DNA from: Kordiimonadaceae bacterium
Lineage (GTDB): Bacteria > Pseudomonadota > Alphaproteobacteria > Sphingomonadales > Kordiimonadaceae
Assembly (NCBI GenBank): GCA_017640725.1
Contig: JAEPQB010000003.1
Span: 310,001 to 374,000 of the forward strand
Length of the DNA stretch: 64,000 nt
Reading direction: 5' to 3'
Notes under the pieces: model-generated
The model's input: the letters and a program-made list of their open reading frames with translations, nothing else
The model's database searches: none
Told to the model about the DNA's origin: nothing
Position numbers and translations under genes: made by a program
In this document: piece by piece, positions 1,215 through 20,625 of the stretch
How positions within the stretch are numbered: position 1 is the stretch's first letter
How the letters are laid out: each line of letters starts with the position of its first letter

Positions 1215-1240
1215 AAAACGCTTGGCTATAAAGCTAAGCG
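1215..1240 (-). terminator. Putative terminator of the 60-aa minus-strand gene
   Basis: CGCTTgGCTataaAGCtAAGCG (1219-1240); on the minus strand followed by TTTT. Confidence 0.55.
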
Positions 1241-1270
1241 CTTGGCTACATTTTACCGAAAAACAGGGTG

Positions 1271-1453
1271 CTACTTCCAGGACAGTTTTTGGCTATCGAC
1301 AGTAGACGTCAACGCAAAGACACTAGCCTTACCAACGGGGTTGGACCTTTTAAAGGTAGAAAAAATAAGTGACAAAGACGTCTGCATAGACGCTAAACCT
1401 AAGCTACCAAAGAATACAAAAAATCCAAGAATAAAAATGTGGCCAATAGTCAT
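1271..1453 (-). CDS. Small (60 aa) putative membrane protein under LexA control
   Basis: ATG preceded by GAGGGG SD; N-terminal hydrophobic segment MTIGHIFILGFFVFFGSLGLA; LexA boxes flank the promoter; terminator downstream. Confidence 0.7.
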   Translation of the reverse strand: MTIGHIFILGFFVFFGSLGLASMQTSLSLIFSTFKRSNPVGKASVFALTSTVDSQKLSWK

Positions 1454-1467
1454 CGTGTGCCCCTCAT

Positions 1468-1482
1468 GTTCTGTTTATGTTC
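1468..1482. promoter_or_regulatory. LexA box (proximal)
   Basis: GTTC-TGTTTAT-GTTC, matching the alphaproteobacterial GTTC-N7-GTTC. Confidence 0.8.
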
Positions 1483-1507
1483 TATTTTCGATTATATGTT
1501 TTGTCAA

Positions 1508-1522
1508 GAACAAAAAAAGAAC
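1508..1522. promoter_or_regulatory. LexA box (distal)
   Basis: GAAC-AAAAAAA-GAAC (reverse complement of GTTC-N7-GTTC). Confidence 0.75.
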
Positions 1523-1651: not shown

Positions 1652-3010
1652 ATGTCTCTGGATACAACAGTAAACCAGAGCGCGGAACGTCAGTCCGGCG
1701 AGACAGATAAAAGCCGGAAGAACAGGGCCAAAAACAGGGAAGCTGAACCCAATAAGGCCCCATTTGACGACCGAGACCAAGATGTCTCCCGCGCCAAGAA
1801 CAAGAGTTCCGAAAAACGCTCCAAGTTTGGAAAGCGCGGAAAATCTTTCAGATCTGGCAATAACAAAGGCGCTGGCCATCGCAATGATGATGGTGGCTCA
1901 TCCAGTAAAAGTTCGTCTGGTAAAGATCAAAAACACCCTGCGGACAATTCGGCTAAACCCGTCAAACAAAAACGCGCCCCGCGTCATCGCAAAAGTTTCA
2001 CATACAGTGCCATTGATTTGGGCACCAATAACTGCCGTTTGCTTATCGCGAAACAAACCAAGCATGGGTTTCGCGTAGTTGACGCATTTTCGCGCATAGT
2101 TCGATTGGGTGAGGGCGTTGCAAAAGACAATCGTCTGTCGGAAGAGGCGATGGATCGCACCATTGACGCTCTTAAGGTATGTGCCGAAAAACTGGCGCGC
2201 AGAAATGTAATGTTCATGCGGCATGTGGCAACTGAAGCCTGTCGAATTGCAGAAAACTCTGATGAATTTGTCGCACGGGTAAAAAAAGAAACCGGAATAA
2301 ATTTGGATGTCATCTCAGCCGGCGAAGAAGCGAGGTTGGCTGTTCTGGGATGCCAGTCGCTGATTGCGCCGGACAAACGCAATGTCCTTGTCTTTGATAT
2401 TGGTGGAGGCAGCACAGAACTTATCTGGGTGAAAGTGCGCCCAGGCAAAGCTAATGAAATTCGGGGGTGGATGTCGGTGCCATGGGGCGTGGTGAATTTG
2501 ACCGAACAATTCGCTAAACCCGGCAAGACGCCAAAACCAAAGAAGTATTCAAAAATGATTGCCACCATGCGCGAACAGCTGGAGGCCTTCGAGGAAGCCC
2601 ACGAACTTAGCAAAGTTCTAAAAGGTCGGCACACACAGTTCCTGGGCACATCCGGCACTGTTACAACACTTGCCAGTTTGCATTTAGGCTTGCCCAAATA
2701 TAACAGAGAACGAGTGGACGGCGCCTGGATGAAATCGAAAGATATTCGGAAACTTTCCCGCCGTGTGGCAGAGATGACGCCAGAACAAAGAGCCGCGGAA
2801 CCCTGCATCGGGTCAGAACGCGCAGACCTTGTAGTGGCAGGCTGCGCCATTCTTGAGGCAATCCTCAGCATGTGGCCGGTGCCAAGTTTGCGTGTGGCGG
2901 ATCGTGGAATTCGTGAGGGCATTCTGCGTGGACTGATGGAACTCGACAAACCACCTCGACACGTGCCAATGAAGGCGGGGCAAAGCAAAAAGCAGCAGGA
3001 GTTGCGCTGA
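1652..3010 (+). CDS. ppx: Ppx/GppA family exopolyphosphatase/pppGpp phosphatase with Lys/Ser-rich N-terminal extension
   Basis: SAIDLGTNNCRLLIA and FDIGGGSTELIW motifs; ORF track start 1649 (TTG), ATG at 1652. Confidence 0.9.
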   Translation: MSLDTTVNQSAERQSGETDKSRKNRAKNREAEPNKAPFDDRDQDVSRAKNKSSEKRSKFGKRGKSFRSGNNKGAGHRNDDGGSSSKSSSGKDQKHPADNSAKPVKQKRAPRHRKSFTYSAIDLGTNNCRLLIAKQTKHGFRVVDAFSRIVRLGEGVAKDNRLSEEAMDRTIDALKVCAEKLARRNVMFMRHVATEACRIAENSDEFVARVKKETGINLDVISAGEEARLAVLGCQSLIAPDKRNVLVFDIGGGSTELIWVKVRPGKANEIRGWMSVPWGVVNLTEQFAKPGKTPKPKKYSKMIATMREQLEAFEEAHELSKVLKGRHTQFLGTSGTVTTLASLHLGLPKYNRERVDGAWMKSKDIRKLSRRVAEMTPEQRAAEPCIGSERADLVVAGCAILEAILSMWPVPSLRVADRGIREGILRGLMELDKPPRHVPMKAGQSKKQQELR

Positions 3011-15111: not shown

Positions 15112-17961
15112 TTACTCTGCCGCCTGGCGCGCAAGAACGGGTGCCAGATATTGGCCCGTGTAGCTCTTCTTGCTGCGGGCAACATCTTCAGGCGTGCCGA
15201 CGGCCACGATTTCGCCACCGCCATCACCACCCTCTGGCCCAAGATCAATAATCCAGTCAGCGGTTTTGATGACTTCGAGATTGTGTTCGATCACAACGAC
15301 TGTGTTGCCTTGCTCGACAAGTGCCTGAAGCACTTCCATCAGCTTGCGAACATCTTCAAAGTGAAGGCCGGTGGTGGGCTCGTCCAGGATGTAAAGTGTC
15401 TTACCGGTTGACCGTTTGGAAAGCTCTTTGGCCAGTTTCACACGCTGGGCCTCACCGCCTGAAAGGGTAGTCGCTTGCTGACCAACGCGGATGTAGCCCA
15501 GTCCAACTTTTTCGAGCATCTCGAGCTTGTTTCTGATGGCTGGAACCGCTTTGAAAAACTGAACGCCATCTTCAACTGTCATATCAAGAACATCTGATAT
15601 CGATTTGTCTTTAAAGCGAATTTCCAGTGTTTCACGGTTATATCTTTTGCCTTTGCACTGATCACACTGAACATACACATCTGGCAAAAAGTGCATTTCA
15701 ATTTTGATCATGCCATCACCGCGGCATGTTTCGCAGCGCCCGCCTTTCACATTGAATGAAAAGCGACCGGGTTTGTAGCCACGTGCTTGTGCTTCTGGAA
15801 GACCAGCGAACCAATCCCGAATGGGAGTGAAGGCATCAGTGTATGTGGCTGGGTTCGAACGCGGCGTACGTCCAATCGGGCTTTGGTCAATGTCGACAAT
15901 TTTGTCCAGGTGCTCCAGCCCTTCGACCGCCTCATGCGCACCCGGGATAACCCTGCTTTTGTTCAGATGCCGCGCAACAGCTTTATAAAGAGTTTCAATG
16001 GTGAAAGTGGACTTGCCTGAGCCGGACACGCCGGTGATGCAGGTGAGCGTTCCCAGCGGGATGCTGCCCTCAACGGATTTCAAATTGTTCGCTGTTGCGC
16101 CCTTAACGGTGACAAATTTGCCTTTGCCCGGCCTGCGGTCTGTTGGAATAGGGACAGCTTTGATGCCATTCAAATACTTGCCTGTCAGGCTCTTACTATT
16201 TGACATGACGGCTTCTGGCTTGCCCTCAGCAACCACAGTGCCGCCATGCTCACCTGCACCCGGTCCCATATCGATGACATAGTCAGCGGTTCTGATGGCA
16301 TCTTCATCGTGCTCCACAACCAGTACGGTGTTGCCAATATCGCGCAGGTTTTTAAGCGTTTCCAGCAAGCGGTCATTGTCGCGCTGATGCAAGCCAATGG
16401 AGGGTTCGTCGAGCACATAGAGTACACCCGTAAGGCCGGAACCAATCTGTGAAGCAAGACGAATACGCTGGCTTTCGCCGCCAGAGAGTGTGCCAGACGA
16501 CCGGCTTAGCGTCAGATACTGCAGCCCTACATTGTTGAGGAAGCCAAGCCGGTCCTGAATTTCTTTCAGGACTTTCTCTGCAATTTGCTGCTGTTTTTCC
16601 GTGAGCCGGCCAGGCAGTTCCTGGAACCAGGAATAGGCAGCTGAAACAGACAATGCGGTCACGTCACTGATATGGGTGCCGTCGATTTTTACCGCCAACG
16701 CTTCTGGTTTCAGTCGCGCGCCATGGCAAGACGTGCATGTTGTTGAGGCCTGATATTTGGAAAGCTCGTCGCGCATCCAATTGCTGTCGGTTTCGCGCCA
16801 GCGCCGCTCGATGTTATTCAAAACACCTTCAAATGGTTTGTTTACCTCAAACCGACGCTTGCCGTCGGCATAAACTATCGTGATGGGCGTTTTGCCGGTG
16901 CCGTATAGAAATCCCTCTTGCGCTTTTTTCGGGAGATCTGACCAAGGCGCATCAATCGAAACGCCGTAATGGTCCGCCACTGCCTCAAGCGCCTGAAAAT
17001 AAAAGGGCGAGGGGTTGTTTGCTTTGTTCGCCCAAGGGGCAAGCGCACCCTGGCGAATGGTCTTTGATTTATCAGGCACCGCAAGGTCAGGGTCGAAATA
17101 GAGTTTGCTGCCAAGGCCATCACATTCAGGGCAGGCGCCAAATGGGTTGTTGAAGGAAAACAAGCGCGGTTCGATTTCTTCAATGGTGAAACCAGACACG
17201 GGGCAGGCGAACTTTGCGGACATGAGGTGACGCTCTGGGTCATCAGTCGCAGTTTCGAAGGCAACCAGGCCGTCTGTCAGGTCCAGTGCGGTTTCAACGC
17301 TGTCTGCCAGACGCTGTTCCAGCCCTGGCTTCAACACCAGACGATCCACAACAACGTCAATGTCATGCTTGTATTTTTTATCGAGCGCCGGCACGTCTTC
17401 GATCAGGTAAAATTCACCGTCCACTTTGACGCGTTGAAAGCCACGTTTTTGCAGGTCGGCAAACTCTTTTCTGTATTCTCCCTTGCGGCCGCGCACAATT
17501 GGCGCCAGCAGGTAGATCCTGGAGCTTTCATCCAGCAGCATAATACGGTCCACCATCTGGCTAACCGTTTGGCTTTCAATGGGTAATCCGGTCGCGGGAG
17601 AATAGGGCACACCAACTCGTGCCCACAAAAGCCGCATGTAATCATAAATCTCTGTAACGGTGCCCACAGTTGAACGCGGGTTCTTACTTGTTGTTTTCTG
17701 CTCAATCGAAATCGCAGGTGACAGTCCTTCAATATGGTCAACGTCCGGCTTTTGCATCATCTCCAGAAACTGGCGTGCATAAGCCGACAAGCTTTCCACG
17801 TAACGGCGTTGGCCTTCGGCATAGATGGTATCGAACGCCAAGGATGACTTGCCCGAACCTGAAAGCCCCGTAATCACCACCAACTGGTCGCGCGGGATGT
17901 CCACATTCACGGATTTCAGATTGTGTTCGCGGGCGCCGCGCACAGAAATTTCGGTCAGCAT
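15112..17961 (-). CDS. uvrA: UvrABC system protein A
   Basis: [38 protein letters not shown], two ABC ATPase halves, zinc-finger cysteines. Confidence 0.99.
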
Positions 17962-18062: not shown

Positions 18063-18077
18063 GAACAAAGAAAGAAC
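18063..18077. promoter_or_regulatory. LexA box upstream of uvrA
   Basis: GAAC-AAAGAAA-GAAC; lies between TTGTTC and CATAAT on the minus strand. Confidence 0.8.
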
Positions 18078-19995: not shown

Positions 19996-20010
19996 GAACA
20001 AAAATAGAAC
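19996..20010. promoter_or_regulatory. LexA box upstream of ssb
   Basis: GAAC-AAAAATA-GAAC. Confidence 0.8.
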
Positions 20011-20133: not shown

Positions 20134-20625
20134 ATGGCTGGAAGTGTAAATAAAGTAATTTTGGTTGGCAATTTGGGTCGTGATCCAGAAGTTCGCACCA
20201 TGCAGGATGGTAATCCTGTGGTGAATTTGTCTGTGGCAACGTCTGAAAACTGGCGTGACCGCAACACCGGTGAACGCCGCGAGAAAACTGAGTGGCACCG
20301 GGTGGTGATCTTTAATGAGAACCTGGCCAAGGTTGCGCAAAATTATTTGAAAAAAGGCTCCAAGGTATATGTGGAAGGTCAGCTTCAGACACGCAAGTGG
20401 ACTGACCAATCCGGCATGGAAAAATACTCCACGGAAGTTGTTCTTCAACGTTTCCGTGGTGAATTGACAATGCTGGATGGGCGCGGCGATGGCCAGGGTG
20501 CCGGCGGTGGCTTCAATGATGGCCAGTCAAACTATGGCGGACAATCACAAGGTGGCGGTTTTGGCGGCGGCCAGGCGGCGCCAGCGGCTGGGCCAGCGGA
20601 CCTGGACGACGAGATCCCATTCTGA
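20134..20625 (+). CDS. ssb: Single-stranded DNA-binding protein
   Basis: [21 protein letters not shown]...DDEIPF acidic tip; track start 20059 judged too far upstream. Confidence 0.98.

Follow-up and report, generated by a model that had tools for sequence, protein, structure and literature searches.

The window (the whole 64,000-nucleotide stretch of Kordiimonadaceae DNA analysed here) carries on its minus strand a 60-codon gene for a single-helix membrane micropeptide, and its sigma-70 promoter is bracketed by two LexA boxes (1468-1522). Judged from the sequence, LexA control of this gene (binding and induction) is near certain, and by analogy with known systems the micropeptide is likely to inhibit cell division. 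We propose that it is an SOS-induced single-helix division brake with the septal wall synthase (FtsW/FtsI/FtsN) as its docking partner, as SidA, YneA and SosA suggest, and we give this reading a probability of about 0.55. For the functional class of SOS-induced single-transmembrane (TM) division inhibitors, LexA control was found by sequence and one TM helix by prediction.

An earlier note on this DNA had described GTTC-N7-GTTC, TTGACA, 17 nt, TAGAAC within GAAC-N7-GAAC, a Shine-Dalgarno site and an ATG; each of these was found where it had been placed, and the translation of the 60-aa ORF was identical (Table 1). Single LexA boxes carry no statistical weight (the 64 kb hold 5, compared with 2.1 expected). 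The box pair is significant, unlike a lone box, because the composite pattern GTTCN7GTTCTTGAC-N17-26-GAACN7GAAC is found a single time in each of 20 Kordiimonadaceae genomes out of 30, and the reversed-pattern control gave no hits. A near-exact two-box promoter, with one change in the -35 or in a box, was present in seven more (G003, G008, G020, G019, G028, G025 and G027). In the remaining three genomes, G002 gave no match to ppx, and G004 and G009 gave only a weak ppx match, comparable to that of the second, paralogous ppx copy in other genomes. Named records place the host of the window, an alphaproteobacterium of a marine family, in the group of Kordiimonas and relatives. From distal to proximal, the boxes of the family lie 40-43 bp apart, start-to-start; these are about four helical turns, so that both LexA dimers probably sit on the same face of the DNA. 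The terminator that had been claimed after the gene fared less well: a mismatched hairpin with a T-rich tail is present and plausible but weak as the terminator of the 60-codon gene, and this hairpin (1243-1216) is absent from the listing of the consensus scan.

Table 1. Positions in the window of the micropeptide gene, its control elements, its neighbours and two other LexA boxes.
Feature	Position	Strand	Evidence and remarks
Distal LexA box GTTCTTTTTTTGTTC	1508-1522	minus	Sequence; pattern kept in family; directly abuts -35
-35 element TTGACA	1502-1507	minus	Sequence; TTGAC at the same place in 20 family genomes
-10 element TAGAAC	1479-1484	minus	Sequence; 17 nt from -35; overlaps proximal box; TATAAG/TAGAAG-like hexamers at this position in relatives
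Proximal LexA box GAACATAAACAGAAC (plus strand GTTCTGTTTATGTTC)	1468-1482	minus	Sequence; kept in family; reads GAACN7GAAC, the first GAAC overlapping -10
Shine-Dalgarno GAGGGG	1460-1465	minus	Sequence; purine-rich site present in most relatives
60-codon gene, single-helix membrane micropeptide MTIGHIFILGFFVFFGSLGLASMQTSLSLIFSTFKRSNPVGKASVFALTSTVDSQKLSWK	1271-1453	minus	Homologues, purifying selection, AlphaFold, hydropathy; ATG at 1453-1451, stop at 1273-1271
Candidate terminator hairpin	1216-1243	minus	Followed by TCTAATTTTTT, T-rich; fold about -14 kcal/mol, one internal mismatch
SPOR-domain lipoprotein, convergent neighbour	59-877	plus	Pfam SPOR 3.6e-6; synteny; marks conserved position
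ppx/gppA phosphatase, divergent neighbour	1652-3010	plus	Pfam Ppx-GppA 1.2e-55; synteny; marks conserved position
LexA box before uvrA	18063-18077		uvrA 15112-17961, minus; ordinary SOS regulon member
LexA box before ssb	19996-20010		ssb about 20134-20625, plus; ordinary SOS regulon member

SOS/LexA control of a small membrane protein, the central claim of the earlier note, is strongly supported since boxes, promoter, gene and position are conserved together; the genome also has a LexA gene (LexA_DNA_bind match, 5.6e-15) and LexA boxes before uvrA and ssb. Co-conservation of the boxes and the ORF in relatives had been set beforehand as a test, and it was observed: the ORF is conserved and the boxes are not those of another transcript. 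By tblastn, the divergent ppx/gppA gene adjoins the micropeptide gene in every family locus examined, and the convergent SPOR-domain lipoprotein gene lies beyond it wherever the retrieved stretch extends that far. In two further families of the order (L067/L083 and L074/L082) the slot and the promoter recur, and the peptide is strongly diverged.

Further LexA boxes lie outside the window. In the same genome, a box (L111, 1501-1515) precedes a gene for a PA0069-type radical-SAM protein, and in Acidiphilium (L050, L064) a double-box promoter precedes, by reading, a similar gene; a radical-SAM enzyme thus seemingly belongs to the SOS regulon. Boxes were also seen in the same genome before genes that read, by eye, as ComM-like and MmcB-like.

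Homologues of the micropeptide were detected in 24 of the 30 family genomes (E <= 2.1e-7), of which 19 are represented in the query alignment, either directly or by a near-identical row. Codons 2-30, which form the helix core, are under strong purifying selection (pooled pS 0.75, pN 0.40), and the codons of the C-terminal tail are near neutral (pS 0.77, pN 0.67); by its pattern of substitution, the ORF is a genuine protein-coding gene. Across Kordiimonadaceae the peptide is 53-74 aa long and consists of the conserved helix and a variable basic tail. AlphaFold predicted a single confident helix (residues 3-37, mean pLDDT >90 over the first 30 residues), the core of which has no charged residues; for the window peptide, the maximum 19-residue Kyte-Doolittle mean is 2.07 and the tail has a net charge of +4. 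All members have a neutral or slightly acidic N-terminus and a tail of net positive charge, therefore an N-out/C-in topology is expected by the positive-inside rule. Among 19 sequences, F12, G16, G19 and Q24 never vary, and 17 retain H5. H5, F12, G16 and G19 share one main helix face, outside which Q24, the best-conserved polar residue, is placed; conservation is significantly biased to one side of the helix (P about 0.002-0.03 depending on window and measure, in a permutation test that ignores phylogeny). These invariant residues and the one-sided conservation favour a specific helix-helix contact, and a conserved face of small residues fits a specific helix-helix dock.

The family is previously unnamed. 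The window peptide matched nothing in Pfam, NCBIfam or PHROGs, a single weak PHROG match (3.4e-3) was obtained with 1 of 19 members, and no match to this peptide type at E < 1e-3 was found outside Kordiimonadaceae in 387 genomes of the class. A phage origin of the gene was considered and is not supported, given its core-genome position and the lack of a PHROG match of the window peptide.

The following sequence of events is proposed. In undamaged cells, two LexA dimers would cover the -35 and the -10 and hold the gene very tightly off; we infer from this double repression a tight lock on a product that is costly if expressed by accident. After damage, RecA filaments would trigger LexA cleavage, the promoter would open and the 60-aa peptide would be made. 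It would insert as one helix, with the N-terminus out and the basic C-terminal tail in, and its conserved face (H5, F12, G16, G19) would dock on a helix of a membrane partner. FtsW/FtsI/FtsN would be the most likely partner, and septation would be paused until the damage is repaired. A division brake is favoured because known damage-induced division brakes have the same build, and because the helix face is conserved. The function does not follow from the single-helix build by itself, since the helices of SidA, TisB and DinQ look equally simple; moreover, family and profile comparisons gave no sequence link from the micropeptide to any proven division inhibitor.

The closest parallel is SidA, the SOS-induced division inhibitor of Caulobacter crescentus, a 29-aa membrane peptide acting on FtsW (PMC4211646). 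Both are LexA-controlled single-helix micropeptides of the inner membrane of an alphaproteobacterium; however, SidA is almost only helix, whereas the Kordiimonas family has 53-74 aa and a basic C-terminal tail. No profile similarity was found to SidA-like or Rhodobacteraceae-type LexA-controlled peptides of other orders. The likeness to SidA drawn in the earlier note consequently holds as an analogy (a LexA-controlled single-helix peptide), whereas homology is not supported, as judged against SidA-like peptides rather than the SidA sequence, and a 60-aa product with a basic tail differs from one of 29 aa. YneA of Bacillus, SosA of Staphylococcus and ChiZ of Mycobacterium are likewise damage-induced single-TM proteins that act late in division. 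The YneA TM helix binds TM7 of FtsW, and the same is predicted, with low confidence, for ChiZ, SosA and SidA (PMC13396833); FtsW is a demonstrated target for YneA and a predicted one for the other late-division proteins of this kind (PMC13396833, PMC6851548). YneA and ChiZ differ in having a LysM domain outside the membrane, and no family match connects YneA, SosA or ChiZ to the Kordiimonas micropeptide. DidA of Caulobacter is similar in length (71 aa), has one TM helix and is damage-induced, with FtsN as its target (PMC4211646), but it is SOS-independent and DriD-driven, whereas the Kordiimonas gene has a double LexA operator. Such an operator has a counterpart at the colicin E8 promoter, where the gene of a dangerous product is held shut by two LexA dimers at its promoter (PMC4482635); that product is, in contrast, a secreted nuclease encoded on a plasmid, and AsnC acts there as a further silencer.

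On the other side of the micropeptide gene, roughly 170 nt of the plus strand (1020-1195; ACTTGGGGAGGTGA ... CACCTGGGGGTTTCGCTCGGAATAGGCGCGGTG ... terminator) have kept their nucleotide sequence across Kordiimonas, and a 7-bp stem within them shows compensatory changes. Rfam gave nothing at gathering score for this region, which is a candidate undescribed small RNA. A 34-codon plus-strand ORF in it (1046-1150) was rejected as a gene: some relatives have stops in frame while the nucleotides are conserved.

The main rival to a division brake is a membrane toxin of the TisB/DinQ type, which on SOS induction would depolarise the inner membrane, lower ATP and leave damaged cells dormant, and which the double operator would keep silent. 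The E. coli type I toxin-antitoxin systems DinQ/AgrB and TisB/IstR also make a LexA-controlled single-TM peptide, and dinQ likewise has two LexA operators over its promoter (PMC3567139), with small RNAs of opposite direction nearby (PMC3567139); at the Kordiimonas locus, the conserved structured RNA 1020-1195 is transcribed towards the micropeptide gene from the other side. DinQ and TisB are however only 27-29 aa long and need an antisense RNA, for which a check of the neighbouring RNA gave no evidence here. Duplex z-scores between RNA 1020-1195 and the mRNA ranged from -2.1 to +1.6 in 13 genomes, and the longest perfect match was 6-10 nt in 12 genomes, about the level of shuffled sequences, compared with 31 nt for agrB-dinQ (PMC3567139). 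With no excess complementarity to the micropeptide mRNA, the neighbouring RNA was rejected as a type I antitoxin. The consensus scan returned no promoter-like site on either strand, and it also misses the micropeptide gene's own promoter. The uncharged helix core with one conserved face is unlike an amphipathic pore former, and the locus is a constant part of the core genome throughout the family; we consider a toxin quite unlikely.

Small proteins with one helix frequently act as modulators of larger membrane proteins, and the peptide could instead regulate, on SOS induction, a membrane process other than division (a protease, a transporter, respiration, or lipoprotein- or SPOR-linked envelope maintenance). 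The adjacent gene encodes a SPOR-domain lipoprotein, and SPOR is a domain of envelope and septum proteins, but the two genes are convergent and a terminator-like sequence lies between them, so they are not linked in an operon. Tight double LexA control also suits a growth-arresting product better than a modulator, and this reading is regarded as unlikely. It is highly improbable that the small ORF is incidental and that divergent ppx/gppA is the gene under the control of the boxes. In the window the distal box is just 129 nt from the ppx start; nevertheless, the promoter hexamers are oriented towards the small ORF, which evolves as a protein. Distances lead to the same result: the proximal box lies 10-22 nt from the start codon (12 loci measured), whereas the gap between the distal box and ppx ranges over 110-145 nt (10 loci where it was readable), therefore the boxes serve the small gene. 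Boxes serving ppx were rejected on this spacing and on the direction of the promoter.

An exact double-operator promoter was searched for in 85,462 species and 36 stretches were obtained, which were sorted by eye according to the downstream frame. A short predicted TM peptide follows in 28 of the 36: 17 belong to Kordiimonadales and their ppx locus, 2 are of Emcibacter type, 8 have 38- to 41-aa peptides of Rhodobacteraceae type downstream and 1 has a 34-aa Robiginitomaculum peptide. Seven stretches precede recA, imuA or a radical-SAM gene, and one is ambiguous. The micropeptides behind the double operator fall into no fewer than three types that look unrelated (Kordiimonadales, Rhodobacteraceae and Robiginitomaculum). 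With a small profile of the Robiginitomaculum-like peptide, LexA-box promoters were found before similar 32- to 44-aa peptides in several other alphaproteobacterial groups.

Several of these peptides have recognisable patterns. Those of Rhodobacteraceae type (L043, L049, L051/L056, L052, L057, L066, L075), TM peptides of 38-41 aa behind a double-LexA promoter, share an ED-x-x-GL-x-A core and are unrelated in sequence to the Kordiimonas peptide. In genomes of Emcibacter type (L045, L071, L077-L080) this promoter occurs outside the ppx locus, where it precedes a TM peptide of pattern M[DE]IL..I..LAF[IL]P. The 32- to 44-aa peptides follow the pattern KDxxALxxLG...W...W (L084/L130, L089/L169, L108/L170, L173, L176, L180, L181, L076) and look like a candidate wider SidA-like set.

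Much of Alphaproteobacteria might, as a tentative extension, share an SOS checkpoint locus with an ancient double LexA operator, at which the micropeptide would have diverged beyond recognition or been replaced, and all of these division brakes would act convergently on one septal synthase; we hold this to be possible rather than probable. In the literature found, post-damage division arrest in Alphaproteobacteria is worked out for Caulobacter only. Such brakes are too short and too variable for homology detection, and the fixed promoter signature makes candidates findable and testable in many lineages. They would constitute a natural set of unrelated helices, possibly all fitting the same site on FtsW/FtsI/FtsN.
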